From positions 1 to 35,898 of IMG/VR virus record IMGVR_UViG_3300037165_000009: 35,898 nt of DNA; one strand, written 5' to 3'. The position numbers and the translations under genes were made by a program. Source of the stretch: a virus. Below, piece by piece: positions 4,553-33,855 of the stretch; the first letter of the stretch is position 1, and each line of letters begins with the position of its first letter. The notes under the pieces are model-generated. The model was given only the letters and a program-made list of their open reading frames with translations. It had not been told where the DNA came from and ran no database searches.

Positions 4553-4750
4553 ATGACAAGAACGACGGCAGGCAATTCCAAGATCAACATCTACTTCAAC
4601 GATGGGGTGCTGAAAGCCCTGAAGGTGATGGCGCGTGCGAAAGGCACGACCTACTCGGAGCTGATCCGGGAAGCCAGTCGGCAGTTTGTCCTGAAGAACG
4701 CAGCTGAGATGGTGGGGGCCGCTGAGTCGATCAAGAAGGTGGCGAAATGA
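4553..4750 (+). CDS. Ribbon-helix-helix DNA-binding protein (65 aa)
   Basis: The ATG at 4553 is preferred to an in-frame TTG at 4505 that would start in the terminator. No good ribosome site precedes it, and the leader may be short. The fold is read from the sequence: a strand SKINIYF (residues 9-15), helix 1 DGVLKALKVMARAKG (17-31), the turn TTY, and helix 2 SELIREASRQFVLKNA (35-50). This is the usual order and length of the Arc/MetJ/CopG ribbon-helix-helix family, which bind DNA as dimers through the paired strand. It is the first gene after a terminator and possible weak promoter and overlaps the next by four bases. A repressor role, perhaps on its own promoter or the one at 1289, is inferred. 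Confidence 0.75.
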   Translation: MTRTTAGNSKINIYFNDGVLKALKVMARAKGTTYSELIREASRQFVLKNAAEMVGAAESIKKVAK

Positions 4751-6211: not shown

Positions 6212-6481
6212 ATGATCGTCAACGACGAAACCACTGAGCATTTGAACCGGGATAAACCCACATGGCCGCTGGGCAAGCCCCCCGGGCGCTTTCAGATCGC
6301 GGCTATTCCGAATTCGCCTGAGATCATCTCTCTGCTGACGCAGAACTACTGCACCAGCGTGAAGGGTGACAACTGCTACGAAGTGGTCAACAAGAAGGGC
6401 GATGTGATCCAGTTGCCCTTCGGTTCGACGCTTGAAGATTGGACCGCGGCGGTTCATCAGGTGGCGTCGTACTGTGACTGA
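6212..6481 (+). CDS. Small protein of unknown function preceding the large terminase (89 aa)
   Basis: The ATG at 6212 is preferred to the in-frame GTG at 6182, which lies in the stem-loop; the ribosome site is weak (GAGAAT about seven bases upstream). The product has a polar start (MIVNDETTEHLNRDKPTWPLG), then an alternating beta/helix core (GRFQIAAIPNSPEIISLLTQ, GDNCYEVVNKKGDVIQLPF) and a terminal helix LEDWTAAVHQVASYCD with a C-terminal cysteine. No family is recognised. The stop overlaps the GTG of the large terminase by eight bases, so the two are likely co-translated. Confidence 0.65.
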   Translation: MIVNDETTEHLNRDKPTWPLGKPPGRFQIAAIPNSPEIISLLTQNYCTSVKGDNCYEVVNKKGDVIQLPFGSTLEDWTAAVHQVASYCD

Positions 6482-7880
6482 GCTGATCTATAACCCGCCC
6501 CCGACCATCCGTGAGTTCATGGAGTCCGACCAGCGCGTGCGCATCGTGCGCGGCCCGGTAGGCTCTGGCAAGTCCTCCGGCATGGTGATGGAGCTGCTGC
6601 GGCGCGCGTCCGAGCAGGCCCCGGATCCGAAAGACGGCATCCGCCGCACTCGTGCGGTGATCGTGCGTAACACGATGCCGCAGTTGAAGAGCACATCCCT
6701 CAAAACAGTATTGGAGCTATTGCGACCCATCGTGCACTGGGAAGCGCAGAATCACACCATATGGATAAAGCAAGGCGATATCGAGGCCGAGTGGATCCTA
6801 ATGCCCCTCGACACCCCCGACAACGTGCAACGACTCCTATCTCTGGACCTGACCTTTGCCTGGCTGAGCGAATGCAGAGAGCTGCCGCCGCGTATATTGC
6901 AGGATGTCCTTTCGAGGTGCGGTCGTTTCCCATCCGTGATGCACGGTGGTCCTACGTGGCGTGGCGTGATAGCCGAGACCAACAGCTTCGACGAGGACTC
7001 GGAGTGGAACAAAATCCTGGAGGAGAAGGAGCTGGACGGGAAGCCGCTCCCCGCGTCGTGGGGATACTTTGTTCAACCCGGCGCAAGGGACGCCAACGCC
7101 GAGAACAAGTCAAACCTCGTACCGGGATACTACGAGGATCTGATCACAAATAACTCCGCGAGCTGGGTCGAGCAGTACGTGGACAACATCATCGCGCCAT
7201 CGCTGTCTGGTGAAGCGGTGTTCAGGGCCAGTTTCAAGCGCACGTTCCATGTGGCGAAGTCGATCATCGAGCCAATCCCTTCGACCATGATCGTGATCGG
7301 CATGGACTTCGGCCGCCACCCCGCGGCGATCCTGACCCAGATGGACCAGCGCGGCCGGCTTATCTGTCTCGATGAAGCCTATGGTGACAACATGGGTGTG
7401 GAACAGTTCATCGGCACGATCCTGCGGCCACTGCTTTCTCAGCCGAAATACAACCGCAACCCCATTGGGGTAGTCGGTGACCCGTCAGGCGTCGCCCGCG
7501 GGCAGGTGGGGGAGGAGTCGGTCTTCGCCGCCATCAAGCGCCTGGGGATGTCAAGCCAGCCCGCTCTGACGAACAATATCGAACCAAGGCTACGGGGTGT
7601 CGAGAAGTGGTTCATGCAGCAGCGGGATGGTACTGCAGCCCTCCTCATAAGCCCAACCTGTGAGCTGCTGATCAAGGCGCTCGGGTCCAAGTACCGGTAC
7701 GCCAAGAAGAAAGACGGCGAGCTGCAGCCGACCCCCGACAAGACCCACCCCTGGTCGGACATCGCGGACGCCCTCCAGTACGGCGTGATGGGACACTCTG
7801 GACATGTTCTTGCACGGCTTGTCAAGACACGACATAATGCGACGGCACGACCCCGGGGATCCTGGGGTGGCTGTACATGA
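6474..7880 (+). CDS. terL: Terminase large subunit
   Basis: This is the packaging motor: an ATPase that pumps DNA through the portal and a nuclease that cuts it. The start is taken as GTG at 6474 (AGGTGG about eight bases upstream), overlapping the previous stop by eight bases; the frame opens further upstream at a TTG at 6432 without support. From the GTG the protein is 468 aa. Walker A is G27-S34 (GPVGSGKS). Walker B is LTFAWLSE with the catalytic Glu at 133; the residue before it is Ser rather than the usual Asp. The C-terminal RNase H-like nuclease has D278 (IGMDFGRHPAA), D336 (VGDPSG) and D429/D432 (HPWSDIADALQY). It acts with the portal at 8470. Confidence 0.93.
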   Translation: MTELIYNPPPTIREFMESDQRVRIVRGPVGSGKSSGMVMELLRRASEQAPDPKDGIRRTRAVIVRNTMPQLKSTSLKTVLELLRPIVHWEAQNHTIWIKQGDIEAEWILMPLDTPDNVQRLLSLDLTFAWLSECRELPPRILQDVLSRCGRFPSVMHGGPTWRGVIAETNSFDEDSEWNKILEEKELDGKPLPASWGYFVQPGARDANAENKSNLVPGYYEDLITNNSASWVEQYVDNIIAPSLSGEAVFRASFKRTFHVAKSIIEPIPSTMIVIGMDFGRHPAAILTQMDQRGRLICLDEAYGDNMGVEQFIGTILRPLLSQPKYNRNPIGVVGDPSGVARGQVGEESVFAAIKRLGMSSQPALTNNIEPRLRGVEKWFMQQRDGTAALLISPTCELLIKALGSKYRYAKKKDGELQPTPDKTHPWSDIADALQYGVMGHSGHVLARLVKTRHNATARPRGSWGGCT

Positions 7881-7906
7881 CACTCACCACATATAGGTAC
7901 CCCAAC

Positions 7907-8392
7907 ATGAATTTCCTGAAAAAGACCCTTGCGTTTGTCCTCGGTGCTGCGGCTGCGGTCGGCTTGGGTTTCGGCGTTGCTGCGCTGGCCCAGGTCTCCA
8001 ACGTCCCTGGTGCCGGTTCCTCCCTCTACAGCGGCCTGAATCTCGCCACCAACCAGAACGGCGTGATCGGTATTCCGGTCGCGATGGGCACGGTTCCGAC
8101 CCTCTCGGGCGCGGGCTGCGGCACTCTGGCAACCGTTCAGGCCTCTCAGATCGGTGGTACGTCGCTCACGCAGTTCGCTGCGAATGCGACCACCTGCACC
8201 ATTACCCTGACCCTCCCGGCGGTCAATGGTGTGATCACGGCGGCCCCGCACGGCCTGTTCTGTGTGGCGGTTGACGAGACCCACGTGGCGACTGCGGCTT
8301 CGCAGACGGCCCACACCACCACGAGCTGCACCGTGTCTTTGACCGGCGTGACCTCCGCTGACCTGATCCTCGTCGAACTCAACGCCTTCTAA
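7907..8392 (+). CDS. Exported four-cysteine protein of unknown function (161 aa)
   Basis: The frame opens at ATG 7877, overlapping the terL stop, but the ATG at 7907 gives a textbook signal peptide: MNFLKKTLAF, a hydrophobic core VLGAAAAVGLGFGVA, and the cleavage site ALA|Q after residue 28. Mature protein is 133 aa, beta-rich (T, V, A, G, S), with four cysteines (C71, C97, C119, C141) that could form two disulfides in the periplasm. The C-terminal part, GLFCVAV...TTTSCTVSLTGVTSADLILVEL, resembles unnamed phage proteins I have seen. It is co-transcribed with terL and followed by a terminator. A phage product sent out of the cytoplasm may change the host envelope, for example receptor masking or superinfection exclusion. 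A signal-anchored virion protein is also possible. Confidence 0.75.
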   Translation: MNFLKKTLAFVLGAAAAVGLGFGVAALAQVSNVPGAGSSLYSGLNLATNQNGVIGIPVAMGTVPTLSGAGCGTLATVQASQIGGTSLTQFAANATTCTITLTLPAVNGVITAAPHGLFCVAVDETHVATAASQTAHTTTSCTVSLTGVTSADLILVELNAF

Positions 8393-8405
8393 GACCCGCC
8401 CTTGG

Positions 8406-8460
8406 CCGGGGGGACTGCACCAAAGCTATTCACACAGCGCAGTCTCCCCGGTCCTTTTTT
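8406..8460 (+). terminator. Rho-independent terminator before the portal gene
   Basis: A 13-bp stem (8406-8418 with 8439-8451, one G-U pair) and a 20-nt loop are followed by TCCTTTTTT. The portal ribosome site begins at 8461, one base after the U-run, with no promoter between, so readthrough must occur. Confidence 0.85.
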
Positions 8461-8469
8461 GAGGTCCAT

Positions 8470-10842
8470 ATGGCTTCCGGTACCCTACCGCCCCTGTCCA
8501 CGATGGACACGAACTCGAACTCGACCGGCCCTACGCCGGCCTATTCCGGCGGTGCACTCCCGATGCCGCAGGCCCCGGCCGTAGGCATGGGCGCTCCCGG
8601 CAACCACGCCCGCGCCGCCCGCACCACCACCGAGCCCATGAAGCACCAGGGTCGCGGCTTCCTCCGGGTGATCGGCAACGACGAACTCGCGGCCAGCGAG
8701 CGTGAGAAGAGCAAAGACCTGTCCGACTCCAAGCCCGAGGTTATGACCCGGCTTGCGAACCATATTCGATCCCGCTTCGAGAAGGCTGTGCGCAACCGCC
8801 GCACCATCGGAGTGGATGACGAGCTGATCCGCGACATGCGCGCCTACAACGGCCAGTACGACCCCTCCAAGCTGCAAGAGATCCGGCAGTTCGGCGGCTC
8901 CGAGGTCTACTCGCGCATGATGGCAATGAAGTGCCGCGGCGCGACGGCGCTGCTGCGCAACGTGTACATGAACTCTGACCGCGCCTGGAGCCTGGAGCCC
9001 ACCGCGGACCCGACCATCCCGGACTCGATCGACGCGAAGATCAAGCGTCTCGTCCAGATGGAAGTCGCCCACGTGAACCAGTCCGGGGTGAAGCTGCCCC
9101 AGGCTGCCATCCAGGCCCGGCTGAAGGAACTCTACGAGGCGACCAAGCTGGCCGAGCGCCGCAAGGCGATCAAGGAAGCCAAGGACGCCGAGCGCAAGAT
9201 CGACGAGATCCTGGAGATCGGCCAGTTCTACCACGCCCTCAGTGACTTCCTGAGTGACCTCCCGGTCTACAAGTACGGGGTCATCAAGGGGCCAGTCACT
9301 CGCCGCGCCACGACGATCCAGTGGGGCCGCGGTGGCAAGCTGGACGAGAAGGACTCCACCCATCCGTATTGGGAGCGCGTCAGCCCCTGGGACGTGTGGT
9401 TCAGCCCTGGCGCGACTGACATCACGAACACTGAGGTCTTCGAGCGCCAGCGTCTGAGCGTCATGGACCTATACAACATGATCGGGATGCCCGGCTACCG
9501 TGATGACGACATTCGGGACATCATCACAGCCTACGAAGGCCGCGGCTTCCGCGAGTGGATCCAGGTCTTCGAGTACGAGCGCGCCTACATGGAAGGCCGC
9601 AACAACACGCTCGATGACAGCTTCATCAACGCGATCGAGTTCCATGGCTACATCCTCGGGTCCTACCTCCAGGAATACGGCGTCAAGGGTCCGGACGGGA
9701 AGATCGACCCCCAGCGCCCGTACTTCATCACCGCCTGGATGGTGGATAAGCGCGTGTTCAAGGTCATGATCAACCCGTCGCCCCGCAAGCGGGTGCCGTA
9801 CTACATCACGAGCTTCGACAAGCAGCCCGGCAGCCTGTATGGCAACGGCATCCCCGCGATGGCCAACGACATCACCGATGTGATCAACGCCACGCTGCGC
9901 GCTCTGGTGAACAACCTCTCCTTGTCGAGCGGTCCGCAGGTGGTCTATGACGACGACCTCGTGGACGTGTCTGCCGATGACTCGATCTACCCGTGGAAGC
10001 GGTGGCGCTACACAGGCGACCCGGCGAACCCGAACCGCAAGCCGGTGGACTTCTTCCAGCCCCAGGACAACTCGCAGAGCCTGATGGCTGTTGTGGACAA
10101 GTTCAGCGTGATGCTGGACGACGTGAGCACCATCCCGCGGTATCTGACCGGCGGCGGTGCAAACTCAGGCGCGGGGCGCACGGCCTCGGGCTTGTCCATG
10201 CTGATCAACAACGCGAACAAGACCCTCCAGAACGTTGCGGACAACATCGACAAAGAGATCATGGAGCCGCTGCTTCAGATGCTCTATGACTACGTGATGA
10301 TGACCGACAAGACCGGGATGCTGCGGGGCGACGAGAACATCGTGATCGACGGTGTGCGCCAGGCCGCGAAGCAGGAACAGGACATGACCCGGCAGCTGGA
10401 GTTCCTGAACACGATCAACAACCCCAACTATCAGGCGATGGTTGGCGGCGGGGAAGTCGCGAAGATCCTGCAGAAGATCGCGGACAACCTCGGCATGGAG
10501 ATCAAGATCAAGGATCCCGACGACGCGCCGGACGCGCCGCCTCCTGGCTTGCCGCCGGGCGTTGCGCCGGGAGCCAACGGCGATACGTTCGGGCCGCAGC
10601 CGCCCCCGCCGCCGCCCCCGCCGCCGCCCCCGCCCCCGCCGCCAAAGGTCATCGAGCAGCTGAAGGGAACTCTGTCCCCGCAGCAGACCGCGGCTGCATC
10701 AGGGCAGCCGATGCCGGCCGGCGGTGGTCCGAACCCCACGGGCAACCAGACGCCTATGCCGAATCCCGCGCAGGCCGCGCCGGGCGCAGGGGGTATCCCT
10801 GGCTTGCGCGGTGGCCCGCAAGTTGGAAACCAAGGGCGATAG
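8470..10842 (+). CDS. Portal protein (790 aa)
   Basis: The portal is the dodecameric ring at the head vertex through which DNA is packaged and ejected. The ATG at 8470 has GAGG five bases upstream. After a disordered N-terminus (to about residue 60) the protein follows the large portals of N4-like and related podophages: a helical region with a long charged helix (LAERRKAIKEAKDAERKIDE), the body with YWERVSPWDVWFSPGATD, the stem-forming GSLYGNGIPAMANDITDVIN (residues about 455-475) and the motif GRTASGLSMLINNANKTLQN (about 575-595). The C-terminus is disordered, with 15 consecutive prolines at residues 711-725, then glycine/proline/glutamine. It lies between terL and the scaffold/coat genes. 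Confidence 0.9.
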   Translation: MASGTLPPLSTMDTNSNSTGPTPAYSGGALPMPQAPAVGMGAPGNHARAARTTTEPMKHQGRGFLRVIGNDELAASEREKSKDLSDSKPEVMTRLANHIRSRFEKAVRNRRTIGVDDELIRDMRAYNGQYDPSKLQEIRQFGGSEVYSRMMAMKCRGATALLRNVYMNSDRAWSLEPTADPTIPDSIDAKIKRLVQMEVAHVNQSGVKLPQAAIQARLKELYEATKLAERRKAIKEAKDAERKIDEILEIGQFYHALSDFLSDLPVYKYGVIKGPVTRRATTIQWGRGGKLDEKDSTHPYWERVSPWDVWFSPGATDITNTEVFERQRLSVMDLYNMIGMPGYRDDDIRDIITAYEGRGFREWIQVFEYERAYMEGRNNTLDDSFINAIEFHGYILGSYLQEYGVKGPDGKIDPQRPYFITAWMVDKRVFKVMINPSPRKRVPYYITSFDKQPGSLYGNGIPAMANDITDVINATLRALVNNLSLSSGPQVVYDDDLVDVSADDSIYPWKRWRYTGDPANPNRKPVDFFQPQDNSQSLMAVVDKFSVMLDDVSTIPRYLTGGGANSGAGRTASGLSMLINNANKTLQNVADNIDKEIMEPLLQMLYDYVMMTDKTGMLRGDENIVIDGVRQAAKQEQDMTRQLEFLNTINNPNYQAMVGGGEVAKILQKIADNLGMEIKIKDPDDAPDAPPPGLPPGVAPGANGDTFGPQPPPPPPPPPPPPPPPKVIEQLKGTLSPQQTAAASGQPMPAGGGPNPTGNQTPMPNPAQAAPGAGGIPGLRGGPQVGNQGR
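10600..10644 (+). repeat. Run of 15 proline codons in the portal gene
   Basis: CCG and CCC codons alternate in a CCGCCC-type low-complexity tract encoding 15 prolines. Such a run stalls ribosomes unless EF-P is present, and the DNA may slip during replication. Confidence 0.95.
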
Positions 10843-14103: not shown

Positions 14104-14155
14104 CCCCCTGACGGGGAAACTCAGGGGGCTGGTGTAACAACCGGCCCCCTTTTTT
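14104..14155 (+). terminator. Terminator with a competing upstream hairpin
   Basis: The terminator is GGGGGCTGG (14124-14132) with CCGGCCCCC (14141-14149), one G-U pair, an 8-nt loop and TTTTTT. The strand GGGGG (14124-14128) can also pair, as TCAGGGGG (14121-14128), with CCCCCTGA (14104-14111), 9-nt loop. The two hairpins are mutually exclusive, as in an attenuator. The upstream one begins nine bases after the coat stop. Confidence 0.8.
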
Positions 14156-22038: not shown

Positions 22039-22214
22039 GCACCCTCAAAGGTCACCGCAAGTGGATCATCACCTTCGTGCTGGTGCTGGCCGCGTTCTAT
22101 CTCGCGCTCAAGGGTATCCTTGACGGTAAGACGTGGGCGTGGTTCTGTGGAAGTCTCGCGACCGGACATGGCACGGCCAACGTCCTGGATAAGCGCGGTG
22201 GTGGCGAAGGATGA
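22035..22214 (+). CDS. Small membrane protein, second holin candidate (59 aa)
   Basis: The ATG at 22035 overlaps the endolysin stop by four bases. After a basic start (MSTLKGHRKW) residues 11-29 (IITFVLVLAAFYLALKGIL) form a strong membrane segment; a second, weaker one may be TWAWFCGSLATGHGTANVL (33-51). The end is polar (DKRGGGEG). Size, charge and place between endolysin and spanin suggest a second holin or antiholin, partner to the 91-aa protein at 21242. Which of the two is the hole-former cannot be told from sequence. It overlaps the i-spanin start by four bases. Confidence 0.65.
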   Translation: MSTLKGHRKWIITFVLVLAAFYLALKGILDGKTWAWFCGSLATGHGTANVLDKRGGGEG

Positions 22215-22705
22215 TCCCGATCCCAGCAGCCTGGAAGACTTACCTGGACATCGCAGGGTTCGTCGCTTTCATCGTCCTGGTCACGATCATTGTGCACCAT
22301 CTCGAAGCGGTGGGCGCGGCGCGGATCCAGGCGCAGGACGCAGCGGTCCTGGCGGCTGATCATGCGAAGATGATCGAGCAGGAACAGCAGTGGCAGGCGA
22401 AGGCCGAAGCCGCACAGGAGCAGCGTGATGCGACTCAGAAGCAGCTGGAGGCTTACATGGCTTCCAACCCTATTGGCCATGTGTTCCTGTGCAACCCGGG
22501 CCGTCCCAAGCCAGCAGTGCCCAGTACCGCCGCCACGAACCCTGGAGATGCGAGTCCCAGCTCCGGACCCGCTGCTGTTCCCGATGTGCCTGAAGGAACT
22601 GATATCGGGGCTGGACTCGCAACCATCGTGCGTGCAGCTGCAACGCTGGACGGACTCTATCGACAGTATCAGCAGCAGCCCCAAGCTGCAGCAGTGAGTC
22701 AGTAA
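22211..22705 (+). CDS. i-spanin (Rz-like), 164 aa
   Basis: The start at 22211 overlaps the previous stop by four bases. The N-terminus is MIPIPAAWKTYLDIAG, with a membrane segment FVAFIVLVTIIVH at about residues 17-29, then a long periplasmic coiled coil (residues about 33-85: QAQDAAVLAADHAKMIEQEQ, QWQAKAEAAQEQRDATQKQL) and a proline/serine/alanine-rich tail. This is the architecture of the Rz inner-membrane spanin subunit, which fuses the inner and outer membranes in the last step of lysis. The o-spanin partner is embedded in the +1 frame (22428-22697). Confidence 0.8.
   Translation: MIPIPAAWKTYLDIAGFVAFIVLVTIIVHHLEAVGAARIQAQDAAVLAADHAKMIEQEQQWQAKAEAAQEQRDATQKQLEAYMASNPIGHVFLCNPGRPKPAVPSTAATNPGDASPSSGPAAVPDVPEGTDIGAGLATIVRAAATLDGLYRQYQQQPQAAAVSQ
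22428..22697 (+). CDS. Embedded o-spanin (Rz1-like lipoprotein), 89 aa
   Basis: Read in the +1 frame within the i-spanin gene, this frame opens at ATG 22428 with AGGAG seven bases upstream, better than many start sites in the window. It encodes a basic start (MRLRSSWRLTW), a short hydrophobic core (LPTLLAM) and cysteines at 19 and 21 (C19-S-C21-A-T-R), then a proline-rich region (CPVPPPRTLEMRVPAPDP). That is the layout of Rz1, an outer-membrane lipoprotein pairing with Rz. The lipobox is not canonical (L-A-M-C or M-C-S-C). Five cysteines in all could also form disulfides. An embedded +1 frame gene is the typical Rz1 arrangement. Confidence 0.7.
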   Translation: MRLRSSWRLTWLPTLLAMCSCATRAVPSQQCPVPPPRTLEMRVPAPDPLLFPMCLKELISGLDSQPSCVQLQRWTDSIDSISSSPKLQQ

Positions 22706-26886: not shown

Positions 26887-29800
26887 ATGGGTGCTATCCC
26901 GCTCCCCGACCAGGGATCGCAGTCGGTCCTGGACTCGGCGCGACAGGATGCGGAGGCATCGCTGCGTACGGCTTATCCGGGTAAGGATATCGGCTCGATG
27001 CTGGGGCAGAACAAAGCCCCGGCACCGGTCAATGACAACTCGGTCACGCCCGACACGGACTTCCAGGCAAGCCCGCCGCCGGATGCCACGGACGCGCCGC
27101 CATCCCCTGGCGCGGTGCCCCCCAAAGATGCGACCCCCGCGCCGCCCTCCAAGTCTCATGGCAACGGGGATATCTGGTCCGCCTCGAACCTGGCTGACTT
27201 CCTGCGCGACGAGTCCCAGGGCTCGACCAAAGAGATCGGCTTTGGCGTCATGCGCGGACTCGCTCGCGTTGGGAATGCTGGCTATACCTTGGCCGCGGGC
27301 ACGCTCGCAGCTGCCGCTGATCACGTTGCTGGTGCGTTACTCGGGACAGATGGCCAGAAGAAGACCGTCACGGGTGCCGAAGATGCGGTCTTCGATTTCA
27401 AGAAGAAGTACATCGACCCCGCCATCGACTCCTGGACGCCCGATCGCAATGCCGTCACGGGTCAAGGCGACGGCAGTGGTGGGCTCGCGCAGGCTCTAGG
27501 GTCCGCCGCAGAGATCATCCCCATCCTGGCAACCGGCGGGGTGGGCCAGGGCGCACTGATCGCGAGCACTGGCGTCAACAGCGCCACGGACGAGCTGGCC
27601 AAGGGCCACTCGATGCGTGAGTCCGTGGCGGCCGCCGCGGTGGACACGATTGCCACGGCCCTCCAGGCGGAGCTGGGCAAAGTCGTCCGACCTCTGACGA
27701 ACGCCATCCCAGCAAAGGTCCCCGAGCTGGTGAAGCAGATGGTCGCCCAGGTGCCGGTGGGCGATACGATCGCTGTGGCCCAGGACCTGATCAAGAAGCA
27801 GATCCTGGCCCGCAACGGGCACCCCGACGAAGCAGCCCAGATCGACCCCCTGGCGAACCTGGGAACTGACTCGCTGCAGAATGCAGTGTTCGCGGTCCTT
27901 GGTGGTCATGGGGAAAAAGCCGAGAAGCCCCCCGCTGGGCCGTCTATGGAACCCGGGCGGCCCATCGAGAGCGCCGACCAGACCACTGGCATCACGGTAG
28001 GGCCGAACCCGCCTGGTGGTGTGCAGAACCCCGCACCAGTCGCGCCCGGTGCCGTGCCCCCCGTTCCCCCGGTCGCGCCCAAGGCCCCGGAAGCCGCGCC
28101 CAATGCCCCGGAAGCCGCGCCCAATGCCCCGGAAGCCGCGCCGCCGCCCGCCGCCGCCCCTACACCGCCGCCGCCCGTGGAAGCCGCTCCGGCCCCCACG
28201 GTCCCGGATCACCCGACTCCCGAGCCGGCAAAGGACATCCGTGCCCAGCTGAAGGACATGAACGACTCCACGACCCCCCGGGTCGGCGTGTTCATTACCA
28301 CCGAGAACCAGCAGCAGATCTTCGGCCCCGACGCTCCCAAGTCCGAGAGTGCAGCGACTATCCAGCGCCAGATGGAACAGGCGCGCAAGACCGGCCGCGT
28401 GATCGACACGCCCCAGGGCACACTGATCCTCAAGGACAAGGCGACTGCGCTCAAGGCGCAGATGCTGCTGAAGAACGGCACCGACCCGCAGCTCGTGCTG
28501 GGGAAGTTCACCGGAGCTGGTGACGGGAAGCAGGTGGGTGACACCGCCGTGGTGCAGGGCCAGACCCCCGATGGCGCAGTTGCGACCGAGACCAGCGTGC
28601 GCCCCGACGAGGTTCCCGCCGCGGTGCAGGCCGCCAAGGACCAGGGCAAGACCCCCGTGGTCACAACGCCGGAGGCTGCGATCCAGCGCCGGGCCGAGGG
28701 TGTGCAGGCCGAGCAGAGCGCCCCGCCGCCGGATGCCACTGACATGCGCGCCGCCGTCCAGCAGGATGACAAGGATGGTCCGGCCAAGGACCTCCTGGCC
28801 CAGTCGTTGGAGTCGGATAAGACCAAGCCCGGCGATGACCTGACGACCATGCGCTCCAAGATAGAGGAGATGCAGGAGCCGAGGACCAAAGAGGCTTCCG
28901 AGAAGGATGACGAAGCCCCCACCGCGCAGCGCGGCATCATCAAGACCAAGGCGGGTGACCGTGCCGTGATCGTGCACGACGCCACGCCGGATGCTGAAGG
29001 CAAGATCCGCGTGAGCCCGATCGACGAGGAAGGCGAAGCCGGCCCCGAGATCCGCGTGCCCGCCGACTCGCTCGCCAGCAAGACAGACGCATCGCCGCCG
29101 GCTGAAACTGCCGGCGCTACAACCGAGCCAGAAGCCAAGCCCGAGACCGCTAAGCCGGCGGCGATGCCCGAAGACAAGGTAACGACCCTGGCCGATGGCA
29201 AGCCCAGCACCAAGCCCATCGACCAGCTGGCCGACGCGACCCGCGACTTCCTGATGCAAGACACCCCTTCCGGCAAGCGCAAGCTCGGTGGGCTGCCCGA
29301 GCGCGTGAGCCGCGTCGCGGAGTACGCCCGCACCCTGAAGTCGATCGCCGCCACCATGGACGGCGATGACGCCTCCCATGCGTACAAGGTCGCGGACAAG
29401 TACGACGAAATTGATATGAAGTCGGCGGAGGACATCGCGCACAACAAGGGCGTGGGTCACACCGAGATGGATGTCGCCCGCGAAAACATGGTGAACGCGG
29501 CGCGCAAGCTGATCGAGCCGGACTTCGAGCGCCCGCCTCTGAAGAAGGCCCGCGAGGTGAAGTTCGCCAAGAAGGTTGCCGATGGTAAGACCGATGCGGC
29601 TGCGGCGAAGCGGCAGGCTGAGATCGACGCCCTGGCCAAAGAGCAGGCGGCTGAGGATGCCCCTCCGCCGAAAAAGCTATCGCGTGCTGACCGTGAGAAA
29701 GCTGAAGCGGCTAAGACCAAAGTCATCGCGGATGTCGAGGACGAGACCAAGCCCAAGGTGCTGAGCAAGGCCGAGGAGCTAAAGCTGCGCAACGCTGGCA

Positions 29801-32800
29801 ATCGGTTCCGCCTTGCCGAAGACGACGAGGTGGACGCCCGCCGCAGCGATGTGGACAAGATTCTCAAAGAGATCTACGGCAAGCGCATGTCCGACAAAGA
29901 ACGCACGGACTTCATGAAAGTCCTGGACCAAATGCGCGAGGACGAGCGCACCCCGAAGACCCGCGACCAGGAGATCGAGGACGAGTTCGCGGACCAGCGG
30001 CGCATGGACACGGGCGAGGACGCCGACGACCTGGGGCACCGGGTGCTCGGGTTCGACGAGGTGGACCCCAAGGTCACGCAGCTGCACCTGGCGCTTGAGA
30101 AGGCCGGTGTATACAACAAGCTACGCGAAGGCGCGGCGCTCAAGCGCGAGTGGGATGCCAAGCACGTTCTGCAGGTAATGGCGGGGCAGACGGATGACGC
30201 GGACCTGAAGAGCTTCATTCAGAAGATTGCCCTGCACACCCCGGAGCAGACCAAGATCCGTCCGGTAGACGTGGTGCGCAACACCACCACGGGCAAGGAA
30301 ATGTCGGAGCGGGCGGGGCAGTTCGAGCTGAGCCATAACCTGATCCAGTTGGGTGTGAAGGGCTACAACGAAGCGCGCATGACCCACACGCTGCTGCACG
30401 AAGCCACGCACGCGGCGACGTACCATCTGATCGTGGGTAACCGGGATCACCCCTACGTGCGCGAGGCGAAGAACCTGCGCCAGATCTTGATCGACCGGCT
30501 GAAGGCCCAGTACGGTCATGACCTGATCCAGTCACACATCGACTACTTCAACAAGAAAGGCCCCAAGCCTGAGAAGTACGCGCAGGCCCTGTACGGCCTG
30601 ATGAACCCGGCTGAGATGCACGCCGAGGCGGCATCGAACCCGAAGTTCCGCGAGCTGATCGCCCGCTCGGAGAAGTACAAGCAGCCCGGTGAAGGGTTCT
30701 TGAACGGTGCCCACACACTGGCCAAGGCGATGTTCGAGAACCTGAAGCGCCTGCTGGGGATGCAGACCCCCGGCGAGGGCACGCTCCTGGGCTCGATCAT
30801 GCGCAACACCGAAAATCTCATGGAGGCGCAGTCGCACTTCCTGGCCGAGAAGGCGGACGCTGCAGTGCATGATCTGCACTCACTGGCCAGCTTGAACGAT
30901 GACCCGCGCCCGCTGAAGAACGAAGCCCGCCTGCGGGACGCCTATGGTCACTCCGTGGCGGTCAACGCCCGGCAGTGGTACCGCGCCGTGCGCACCGGTT
31001 CGATCCACGCGCTGCGCCGGCTGGTTCTGGCCGACGAAAAGCCCGACCAGATGGTGCGCTCGAACGCCCACTGGTTCGGCCGCGATGACGAGACCAACCC
31101 GCTGCGCCAGTGGGACGAGACCAAGAAGGACGCCGTGCAGGCCCAGAACAAGATCCTGGAGCACGCCCGAAAGCTGGTGCTGGATCGCCAGGCGCTCCCG
31201 AAGGATGTGGACAAGAAGCTCGGGCAGCTGCAGATCGACTCCCAGCAGTGGGGGTTCGACCCGACCAAGGACGCCACTGAACAGACCAAGGCTGCTCAGA
31301 AACTGCCGAACTTCAAGAACCGGTTCGCGGATTTCCAGAACCGGTGGCACGCGCTCGACCCCCGTGCCCAGGCAGTATTCCTGGGGGAGTCAGCGCACAA
31401 CGCATGGGAAGCGCGGCTGATGCGCAAGACTGGCGTGGACGCGAGTCTTGACTCGTTCACTGACAAGGACATCCCGCAAGCCCAGCGTGCATTGCTGTAC
31501 AGCGCCCGCACCAAGGGTGACTTCGACTCCCTGATCGGCACCGGCAAGCAGATCGATGTGGGGGACCGCAACGAGGCATTGAAGTCGGCGCTGCAGGACC
31601 TGGCAGCCTTCAATCAAGTCAAGGGCCACTACTTCCACCTGGGGCGCACGGGCGACTACGTTGTCTCAGTCAACCCTGAAGTTGATAAGAACTTCGACAC
31701 CCAGCAAGAAGCGGAAGCCCACGCGGATCTGGTGCGCTCGACCGGCCCGAATGCCAAGGCGACCGTCGCGGAGCTGGGGGGCAAGTGGAACGTCTCGGGC
31801 AAGAGCACGTACCTGTCGCGCCATACCAGCTGGGAAAGCGCCAAGATGGAACAGCAGCGATTGCTGGTGCAGGGCCACGACGTGGACCCTGTGACGACGC
31901 TGTTGGAATCCCAGACGGCTGGCTCTCTGCCACACAGTATGCAGTCGCTGGTCGCCGCGGCGCAGACGAAGCTGGAGCGGCGGGGGTCTGGGCCTGAGAC
32001 ACAGGCGCTGACCGACGCCCTGCGCAACACGTTCGTGCAGATGGTCGCCCACCGCTCCGAGTACGCCGCATCGAAGCTCGCCCGCCAGGGGTTCGGTGGC
32101 GTGAAGCCCGAGGAGATGGGCCGCAACTTCGCTGCGCACGTTCAGTCCAGTGCATGGAACATCGCCAATCTCGCCACGACTTTCAAGCAGGGTGAGGCGC
32201 TTGGCAAGCTGCGGGCCTCCACGAAAGACCGGGGGGCGGACGAGACGACGCTGTACAAGCGCGGCGCGGTCATGCAGGAGATCGGCAAGCGCACGGCGCA
32301 GGAAGTCAGCCAGTCGGGCCTTAAGAATCCGGTGAACGCGGTCATGGCGAAGATGGGGTACGCCAACTACCTGGCGAGCCCCGCACACACGATCGTCAAT
32401 CTGACGCAGAACTTCACGACGGCACTCCCCGTTGCGGGTGCGAAGTTCGGCTACGGCCGGGCGCTGGACTCGTTCGGCCGGGCGACCGCGGCGCTGATCA
32501 AGCCAACGCTGGGTGCCGCTGGGCGTGCATGGAATCCGAAGCTCCACGACTTCAATGTCGAGGATATGGTTCAGCACGGCATCGACTCCCTGAAGGGCCA
32601 CAAGGACTTCGGTAAGTACGTGCCACACCTGAAGACGATGCTTGACCGCGGAGTGTTGAACTCCACGTTCGCCGCGGAGCTGGGCCACCAGGCGCAGGGC
32701 GGCAATCGCACTGTCCAACGAGTGTTCGATGCCGCCCGTGTCATGCCGCAGATGGCCGAGGTGTACAACCGTATCTCCACTGCGCTGGTTGGTCTGGAGA

Positions 32801-33855
32801 ACACCAACGGGAACATCCAGAAGGCGAGCGACCTCGTGCTGGCAACTCACTTGGACTACAGCCAGCAGAGCAAGACTCGTGTCGGCAAGATGCTGGCGAA
32901 GGTTCCCGGTGCGAACACCGTCACGATGTTCCGCACTTACGTCCAGGGGATGCGCCACCTGCTGTACTCGAACGTCAAGAACATGGTGTTTGCGGAGAGC
33001 AAGTCGCGAGCCGAGGCTGCCAAGACTGTGGCGGGCCTGCTGGTCGGGCAGGGGATCTTCGCAGGTGTCATCGGCGGGGCCATGATCGAACCGGTGCGCG
33101 CTACCGCGTATCTGTGGCACCAGTTGTTCGGAGACAAGGACGACTACTATGACTTCGACAACACCGTGCGGCACTTCCTGTCCGATGCTATGGGCAGCAA
33201 AGCCGCCGACGTGGTGGGCGGCGGCCTTCCTCACCTACTCGGGTTCGACTTGTCCGGGCGCATGGGGCTGAGTGATTTGTTCCTCCATAACCCACCGGAT
33301 CTGCTGCACTCGGACACCAAGACCAAGATGGCATTCCTGGGCGAACAGCTGGGTGGCCCCATGGGTCAGATGGTTGCCGAGAACATCGACGGCTTCAGCA
33401 AGGCCATCGACCGTGGCGATGCGTTCGGGGCACTGGCGCAGATCATCCCGATCAAGCAGCTGCGCAATCTCCAGGAAGCCTACGCTTACGGCACCGAGGG
33501 CAAGCGCGCAGGCAATGGCGGGCAGCTGACGCCTGCCAGCGGGCTCGATGCGGCATACCAGGCGATCGGCCTTAAGCCCTCGGACGTGGCCGACGCGCAG
33601 CAGCGCCAGGGCGCAGTGATCAATTACAAGAACTTCACCAGCGATCGCAAGCAGCGGCTGCTGCGGGCGTGGGACAACACGAGTGATCCGCAGTCAGTGA
33701 TGTCCGCGATCCAGGACTACAACGCAAAAAATCCCGGGGATCGGATCAAGCCCACGGATCTTCGGCGGCAGGGTCAGGCGGCGATGCGGACGCAGGAAGA
33801 GATCGAAGATGGGCGGTCCAAGGACCCTGATGTGGACGAACTACTGAGGTACTGA
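26887..33855 (+). CDS. Giant large-polyvalent-type virion protein with zinc-peptidase motif (2322 aa)
   Basis: It starts at ATG 26887, two bases after the previous stop, and is by far the largest product. Visible parts: a glycine/alanine-rich hydrophobic region near residues 130-260 (LAQALGSAAEIIPILATGG, GQGALIASTGVNSATDEL); a proline/alanine linker with three APEAAPN-type repeats (about 395-445); a charged central part with an AEDAPPPKKLSRADREKAEA-type helix; a HEXXH zinc-peptidase motif, H1171-E1172-A-T-H1175 (LLHEATHAATYHL), with NPAEMHAEAASNPKF at 1240-1254 as the likely third-ligand segment; and a C-terminal half (from about 1800) with ASPAHTIVNLTQNFTTALP and a membrane-like segment near 2048-2078. 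This fits the 'large polyvalent protein' class, probably an ejected virion protein; no RNA polymerase motifs are visible. Confidence 0.8.
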   Translation: MGAIPLPDQGSQSVLDSARQDAEASLRTAYPGKDIGSMLGQNKAPAPVNDNSVTPDTDFQASPPPDATDAPPSPGAVPPKDATPAPPSKSHGNGDIWSASNLADFLRDESQGSTKEIGFGVMRGLARVGNAGYTLAAGTLAAAADHVAGALLGTDGQKKTVTGAEDAVFDFKKKYIDPAIDSWTPDRNAVTGQGDGSGGLAQALGSAAEIIPILATGGVGQGALIASTGVNSATDELAKGHSMRESVAAAAVDTIATALQAELGKVVRPLTNAIPAKVPELVKQMVAQVPVGDTIAVAQDLIKKQILARNGHPDEAAQIDPLANLGTDSLQNAVFAVLGGHGEKAEKPPAGPSMEPGRPIESADQTTGITVGPNPPGGVQNPAPVAPGAVPPVPPVAPKAPEAAPNAPEAAPNAPEAAPPPAAAPTPPPPVEAAPAPTVPDHPTPEPAKDIRAQLKDMNDSTTPRVGVFITTENQQQIFGPDAPKSESAATIQRQMEQARKTGRVIDTPQGTLILKDKATALKAQMLLKNGTDPQLVLGKFTGAGDGKQVGDTAVVQGQTPDGAVATETSVRPDEVPAAVQAAKDQGKTPVVTTPEAAIQRRAEGVQAEQSAPPPDATDMRAAVQQDDKDGPAKDLLAQSLESDKTKPGDDLTTMRSKIEEMQEPRTKEASEKDDEAPTAQRGIIKTKAGDRAVIVHDATPDAEGKIRVSPIDEEGEAGPEIRVPADSLASKTDASPPAETAGATTEPEAKPETAKPAAMPEDKVTTLADGKPSTKPIDQLADATRDFLMQDTPSGKRKLGGLPERVSRVAEYARTLKSIAATMDGDDASHAYKVADKYDEIDMKSAEDIAHNKGVGHTEMDVARENMVNAARKLIEPDFERPPLKKAREVKFAKKVADGKTDAAAAKRQAEIDALAKEQAAEDAPPPKKLSRADREKAEAAKTKVIADVEDETKPKVLSKAEELKLRNAGNRFRLAEDDEVDARRSDVDKILKEIYGKRMSDKERTDFMKVLDQMREDERTPKTRDQEIEDEFADQRRMDTGEDADDLGHRVLGFDEVDPKVTQLHLALEKAGVYNKLREGAALKREWDAKHVLQVMAGQTDDADLKSFIQKIALHTPEQTKIRPVDVVRNTTTGKEMSERAGQFELSHNLIQLGVKGYNEARMTHTLLHEATHAATYHLIVGNRDHPYVREAKNLRQILIDRLKAQYGHDLIQSHIDYFNKKGPKPEKYAQALYGLMNPAEMHAEAASNPKFRELIARSEKYKQPGEGFLNGAHTLAKAMFENLKRLLGMQTPGEGTLLGSIMRNTENLMEAQSHFLAEKADAAVHDLHSLASLNDDPRPLKNEARLRDAYGHSVAVNARQWYRAVRTGSIHALRRLVLADEKPDQMVRSNAHWFGRDDETNPLRQWDETKKDAVQAQNKILEHARKLVLDRQALPKDVDKKLGQLQIDSQQWGFDPTKDATEQTKAAQKLPNFKNRFADFQNRWHALDPRAQAVFLGESAHNAWEARLMRKTGVDASLDSFTDKDIPQAQRALLYSARTKGDFDSLIGTGKQIDVGDRNEALKSALQDLAAFNQVKGHYFHLGRTGDYVVSVNPEVDKNFDTQQEAEAHADLVRSTGPNAKATVAELGGKWNVSGKSTYLSRHTSWESAKMEQQRLLVQGHDVDPVTTLLESQTAGSLPHSMQSLVAAAQTKLERRGSGPETQALTDALRNTFVQMVAHRSEYAASKLARQGFGGVKPEEMGRNFAAHVQSSAWNIANLATTFKQGEALGKLRASTKDRGADETTLYKRGAVMQEIGKRTAQEVSQSGLKNPVNAVMAKMGYANYLASPAHTIVNLTQNFTTALPVAGAKFGYGRALDSFGRATAALIKPTLGAAGRAWNPKLHDFNVEDMVQHGIDSLKGHKDFGKYVPHLKTMLDRGVLNSTFAAELGHQAQGGNRTVQRVFDAARVMPQMAEVYNRISTALVGLENTNGNIQKASDLVLATHLDYSQQSKTRVGKMLAKVPGANTVTMFRTYVQGMRHLLYSNVKNMVFAESKSRAEAAKTVAGLLVGQGIFAGVIGGAMIEPVRATAYLWHQLFGDKDDYYDFDNTVRHFLSDAMGSKAADVVGGGLPHLLGFDLSGRMGLSDLFLHNPPDLLHSDTKTKMAFLGEQLGGPMGQMVAENIDGFSKAIDRGDAFGALAQIIPIKQLRNLQEAYAYGTEGKRAGNGGQLTPASGLDAAYQAIGLKPSDVADAQQRQGAVINYKNFTSDRKQRLLRAWDNTSDPQSVMSAIQDYNAKNPGDRIKPTDLRRQGQAAMRTQEEIEDGRSKDPDVDELLRY
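28084..28140 (+). repeat. 21-bp tandem repeat in the giant gene
   Basis: GCCCCGGAAGCCGCGCCCAAT occurs twice in full (28084-28104, 28105-28125) and once truncated (28126-28140), encoding the APEAAPN repeats of a proline-rich linker. Confidence 0.85.

Follow-up and report, generated by a model that had tools for sequence, protein, structure and literature searches.

A putatively exported four-cysteine protein with a fibre-tip-like domain, encoded between the terminase and portal genes of an uncultured podovirus-like phage

The locus and its surroundings

We analyzed a 35,898-nt stretch of viral DNA (IMG/VR record IMGVR_UViG_3300037165_000009, positions 1 to 35,898; hereafter the window) from a podovirus-like source record, whose portal protein has its closest isolate relative in Rhizobium phage RHph_TM3_14A (44% identity). 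Between the gene for the terminase large subunit (terL) and the portal gene lies a gene for a 161-residue protein with cysteines at residues 71, 97, 119, and 141 (Table 1). The original prediction, made from the sequence alone, had given coordinates, cysteine content, and location correctly. A second in-frame ATG at 7877, overlapping the terL stop codon (ATGA), would extend the protein by 10 residues; the starts of the homologues align with the ATG at 7907. We consider the gene real because homologues with 44–50% identity keep all four cysteines and the N-terminal signal.

Table 1 Features of the locus and of related genes in the window
Feature	Coordinates	Strand	Basis
Target gene, 161 aa, exported four-cysteine protein (predicted)	7907..8392	+	ORF (ATG at 7907, stop codon ending at 8392); homologues in ~12 related contigs
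Sec-type signal peptide, residues 1–28 (ALA↓Q)	7907..7990	+	n-region KK, hydrophobic core, A-x-A; conserved family-wide
C-terminal fibre-tip-like beta domain, ~residues 58–161	8078..8389	+	HMM homology, AlphaFold beta-sandwich, cysteine co-variation
Terminase large subunit (terL), upstream flank	~6474..7880	+	PHROG 2, E 3e-24
Portal protein, downstream flank	8470..10842	+	PHROG 332, E 4e-59; SU10_portal, E 1e-15
Gene-attached palindrome ACATATAGGT (relatives: ACCTATAGGT), 10 bp	7889..7898	+	just upstream of the start of family genes in six genomes
Strong intrinsic terminator (hairpin 8404–8454, T6 tract)	8404..8460	+	folding: −32 kcal/mol, z −5.15
Ribbon-helix-helix (RHH) gene, candidate regulator	4553..4750	+	weak RHH/antitoxin-type NCBIfam matches below cut-off
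Rz-like spanin gene	22211–22705	+
Rz1-like lipoprotein ORF (LLAMCSCA)	22425–22697	+	nested in other frame of Rz-like gene

The target gene is followed by a strong terminator of its own, as expected of a moron. The window has two hairpins of −20 kcal/mol or lower that precede a tract of at least five Ts, compared to 0.2 in shuffles (maximum 2), and terminator-like hairpins also lie 3′ of the family gene in four relatives (L040, L041, L043, L052). Another strong terminator (14124–14155, +) follows the major capsid gene, with similar post-capsid hairpins in L007, L023, L024, and L034.

The palindrome upstream of the gene has one other match in 15 phage records at ≤1 mismatch, versus 27 for the reversed control pattern. 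A collection-wide scan yielded chance matches, none of them at family genes, so that the element is informative within this phage group alone. It may be an operator or part of a promoter or ribosome-binding site, and its AGGT (7895–7898) may serve as a Shine-Dalgarno sequence; no sigma-70 promoter match was found upstream of the target. The RHH gene, which encodes a candidate regulator, adjoins the family gene in several relatives. The earlier proposal that the protein is made in amount from a late operon is not borne out, given that the gene has its own terminator and that its counterparts in some relatives are divergent from the packaging genes.

Two further observations concern late and packaging genes of this phage group. 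The window encodes a giant late protein of 2,322 aa (26887–33855, +), for whose 2,270-aa counterpart in phage StenR_269 a role as virion RNA polymerase has been proposed (PMC10747016). The 769-aa terL product of L024 (2700–5009) contains an apparent intein right after the start of its P-loop (GPVGC followed by LSGDTEYLSPRGW...).

A signal peptide, paired cysteines, and a fibre-tip-like domain

IMG/VR scans and profile searches of related phage records yielded a close family of ~13 members on ~12 related contigs, and several paralogues can occur inside one genome. Common to its members are a signal peptide, followed by a short Y-x-G-x-N-P-x-T-G segment that the window protein conserves less well, and a C-terminal domain, in most cases with four cysteines. 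Defined by the signal peptide and a C-terminal domain with co-varying cysteine pairs, the family includes the target, which has both. The family is absent from Pfam, PHROGs, NCBIfam, and PADLOC, and the target has no match in these, among PDB sequences, or in isolate phages. Searches with tblastn of 50,697 phage records, using the target, L002, L040, L052, L059, L064, and the L081 tip domain as queries, gave no credible match, two tblastn scans of bacterial and archaeal genomes likewise yielded no relatives, and we did not find the family described in the literature on exported phage fibres or on DUF3494 in phages. One apparent relative, L054, was discarded as a spurious match.

The N-terminus of the target (MNFLKKTLAFVLGAAAAVGLGFGVAALA↓QVSN...) has lysines in its n-region, a hydrophobic core, and an A-x-A motif. 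Among the 36 predicted genes of the window, only the target passes our signal-peptide heuristic (0 of the other 35). The heuristic is simple, and ~5% of whole-protein shuffles of the target pass it as well; one protein alone is therefore no proof, and the evidence from the family, in which all 14 proteins tested are positive, weighs more. By heuristic score the cleavage site is ambiguous, with residue 17 scoring best, and cleavage after residue 28 (ALA↓Q) agrees better with the homologues. This is the signal peptide that had originally been read from the sequence, and both the family and its uniqueness in the window bear it out. The target has no lipobox, its first cysteine being residue 71.

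The cysteines follow a strict pairing rule across 27 dereplicated domain proteins. The first two (C1 and C2) are either both there or both missing, and the third (C3) is accompanied by one partner only, C4 or C4′ (near the C-terminus), unless all three are missing. The rule fits 27/27 proteins, compared to a mean of 10.7 and a maximum of 19 in 20,000 permutations, a test that disregards kinship among the 27 sequences; each pair was lost in separate lineages (L058, L090, L076). Such co-variation is the pattern expected from two disulfide bonds, which we infer from the alignment, and paired cysteines are compatible with an oxidising, extracytoplasmic location. The gain and loss of cysteines in pairs, together with the family-wide signal peptides, supports disulfides as well as the earlier expectation of an exported product with an extracytoplasmic role, and we hold with high confidence that the target is exported and carries disulfides. 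Its location between terL and portal, and the rate at which shuffles of a single protein pass, would also suit a cytoplasmic head protein whose hydrophobic N-terminus arose by chance, but signal peptide and paired cysteines are kept across the family and its long relatives, which makes this reading very improbable.

These long relatives emerged through a second subfamily (L059, L064), which led to 30 loci where the domain forms the C-terminus of proteins of ~170 to 1,400 residues. An HMM built on the target family alone recovers most of these C-termini, with E 1e-9 to 1e-23 when the fibre set is searched; run against all 4,024 ORFs, it finds fibre-like C-termini of 500–1400-aa proteins at E 1e-6 to 1e-20. 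Several of the long proteins have tail-fibre-type repeats, one (L080) matches PHROG tail-fibre families, and several are encoded at tail-fibre loci, with genes for collar-type fibres and for lysis next to them. The heuristic detects a signal peptide in 18 of the 21 complete long proteins, and in the remaining three (L070, L071, L073) it is obvious by eye; among neighbouring ORFs 26/130 pass, some of which are tandem exported neighbours. We conclude, with considerable confidence, that the C-terminal domain of the target is homologous to the tips of fibre-like proteins.

Signal-peptide-bearing fibre-like genes occur as tandem pairs at the border of tail-fibre and lysis genes in L077, L081, L090, and L096. 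In the Bradyrhizobium phage ppBdUSDA122-1 (OP596612.1; L097 2053–6134), a signal-peptide-like sequence begins both the annotated tail fibre WAX24263.1 and its neighbour on the upstream side.

AlphaFold predicts an antiparallel beta-sandwich both for the window protein (pLDDT 63 overall, ~80–90 in the domain) and for its relative in L040 (pLDDT 72 overall, 80–92 in the domain). The top structural neighbours of the L040 model are the fibre heads of R1 and R2 pyocins (Z 6.0, rmsd 3.6, 82 residues, 23% identity), a value to be read with the fact that Z 5–6 over 70–82 residues is in the range of common arrangements and that no Foldseek E-value fell below 0.001. Further neighbours include C-termini of phage tailspikes and H-type lectins, with AP22 gp53 ranking lower. 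Two family members match PF21882 (Gp53-like_C, a tail-fibre C-terminus) at 12.0 and 12.8 bits, below the curated cut-off of 24.9, and these are the sole such matches in ten phage records; the window protein has no PF21882 match. The models thus weakly suggest a fold like that of R-pyocin fibre heads and H-type lectins, a likeness in line with both the sequence relationship to fibre-like proteins and the sub-threshold PF21882 matches.

A moron-like cargo gene in changing slots

In the window, terL and portal lie 589 nt apart, whereas the gap ranges from −10 to 59 nt across eight relatives; L030, with a portal 79% identical to that of the window, has only 38 nt there. The target thus sits, as a moron would, between neighbours that adjoin in close relatives. 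Across otherwise collinear genomes the family occupies at least six different slots: members directly follow the portal gene (L034), separate the spanin-like gene from the GNAT gene (L002, L027/L058), precede the RHH-terS genes in the same orientation (L040, L052, L044), run divergently from RHH-terS or packaging genes (L041, L043), or close the late module (L045). In other relatives (L005, L015, L016, L017, L023), the slot between terL and portal holds unrelated inserts, among them a cysteine-rich 188-aa protein, HNH-like proteins (one of them fused to a further domain), and a beta-rich protein.

Because the junction is empty in relatives, and because the gene has its own terminator and a gene-specific palindrome upstream, we interpret the target as moron-like cargo and not as a head gene, and we regard its nature as mobile cargo as well supported. 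Foreign base composition, considered as a further sign of a moron, gave no support, the G+C content at codon positions being like that of the neighbours. The original prediction had found it unexpected that an exported protein is embedded in packaging genes. The location stands, and its significance does not: with a family that moves among at least six slots and closest relatives that have no gene here, the placement is incidental. In three near-60-kb relatives that carry the family (G018, G032, G033), neither a tyrosine nor a serine integrase was found; the window itself is incomplete. Lysogenic conversion accordingly seems less probable than an effect during a lytic infection.

A role in lysis timing, also raised originally, would make the target a periplasmic antiholin or spanin partner, in keeping with the members of L002 and L027 that lie between spanin-like and GNAT genes. 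The position of the family is not conserved, however, and the window already carries genes for a GH108 endolysin and an Rz-like protein, the latter with an Rz1-like lipoprotein ORF nested inside it. T4 RI is helical, and the predicted beta-sandwich of the target differs from it. With a complete lysis set elsewhere in the window, we rejected a spanin or antiholin role and consider lysis timing improbable.

Proposed role and comparison with known systems

The explanation we favour, at a probability of roughly 0.45, is that the target is a moron-type exported free fibre tip that binds an envelope glycan, most likely to mask a receptor. The cargo gene inserted between terL and portal would yield a Sec-exported product, of which ~133 residues would be left after cleavage of the signal peptide and would fold outside the cytoplasm into a beta-sandwich with two disulfides. 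The resulting free tip, the same domain as the C-terminus of long fibre-like phage proteins, would bind an envelope glycan or other receptor through its tip face, occluding the receptor late in infection and later on lysis debris. Such occlusion would keep secondary and progeny phages from unproductive adsorption.

Within this proposal, the odds that the target binds a glycan or receptor appear about even. Receptor masking as its benefit is more tentative; we favour occlusion because a free tip able to bind the receptor would be in competition with progeny phages and with newly arriving ones. For the receptor-related role of the original prediction, the mature domain supplies an independent argument, as it is the domain found at the tip of fibre-like phage proteins; the masking itself we infer. 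In a diderm host, a Sec-exported protein would remain periplasmic, and receptors on the outside would therefore be reachable only via a further route or after lysis.

The long relatives also allow for a virion appendage that matures in the periplasm: the protein would be exported to form its disulfides and would join virions at or after lysis as a fibre tip or adhesin. The domain does end long, signal-peptide-bearing fibre-like proteins with tail-fibre repeats at tail-fibre loci, and a signal peptide likewise opens the tail fibre of ppBdUSDA122-1. The target, however, has no obvious virion-attachment region, and its gene is missing from close relatives that share the virion genes of the window. 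Moreover, we know of no tailed phage that assembles exported fibres, and we consider such an appendage unlikely.

Slightly less likely still is a host-surface or extracellular adhesin or stress protein, its exported domain being a scaffold that alters the cohesion, matrix binding, or environmental survival of infected cells or debris, in the way that ice-binding-like proteins might. This reading draws on a paralogue in L027/G033 with a complete ice-binding-like domain (PF11999; L058 694–1749, −, contig IMGVR_UViG_3300033829_000001, 352 aa, E 5e-47), which is inserted in the loop of the beta domain where C2 would be and whose gene, in the 60-kb relative G033, stands in tandem with that of a 138-aa family member. 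Viral PF11999 genes found in Arctic viromes have been reported as candidates for a role in cryoprotection (PMC11515562); we did not find viral PF11999 inside such a protein reported in the literature. Against an adhesin or stress protein, the insert is present in just 1 of ~13 members and is lacking in the target, and PF11999 has no match within the window.

Returning to the free exported tip, its wider meaning lies in where the domain occurs. Tail-fibre modules are usually regarded as virion parts assembled in the cytoplasm. Here, the domain is found solely behind a signal peptide and with paired cysteines, both as a fibre-like end and as a free mini-protein, which suggests that phages bring receptor-binding modules into play outside the cell, either at lysis or ahead of it; this could reveal widespread superinfection control, debris avoidance, or extracellular assembly of fibres in uncultured phages. 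It is conceivable, though rather doubtful, that many uncultured tailed phages make Sec-exported fibre-type proteins that are oxidised outside the cytoplasm and function there, be they free receptor-blocking tips or appendages added to virions at lysis; in that case, tail-fibre modules would not be assembled or used in the cytoplasm alone.

Among known systems, the long fibre-like proteins of uncultured phages (L072–L096) share with the target the signal peptide and the C-terminal cysteine domain and differ from it in their size (200–1400 aa) and fibre repeats, whereas WAX24263.1 has a signal peptide like that of the target and a different C-terminus. The C-terminal domains of Gp53-like_C (PF21882), R-pyocin fibre heads, and H-type lectins are antiparallel beta-sandwiches of similar size, with weak likeness in sequence and structure; unlike them, the target is a free exported domain with two conserved (predicted) disulfides. 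Ice-binding-like proteins (PF11999/DUF3494) are exported, as the target is predicted to be, but the target is without that domain. Superinfection-exclusion lipoproteins (Cor, Llp, Ltp) have a lipobox cysteine after the signal peptide, in contrast to the target. Lambda-type morons encode exported proteins such as Lom and Bor, or Cor of phi80 and N15. Like the target, they combine a small exported product encoded in the late region with an own terminator and absence from close relatives; the target differs in having no sequence similarity to them in the libraries searched, in not being a lipoprotein, and in that the three near-60-kb relatives examined give no hint of lysogeny. Taken as a moron whose product is exported, the target is a variant on a known theme, and the surprising part is the systematic coupling of a signal peptide and disulfides to a fibre-tip domain.
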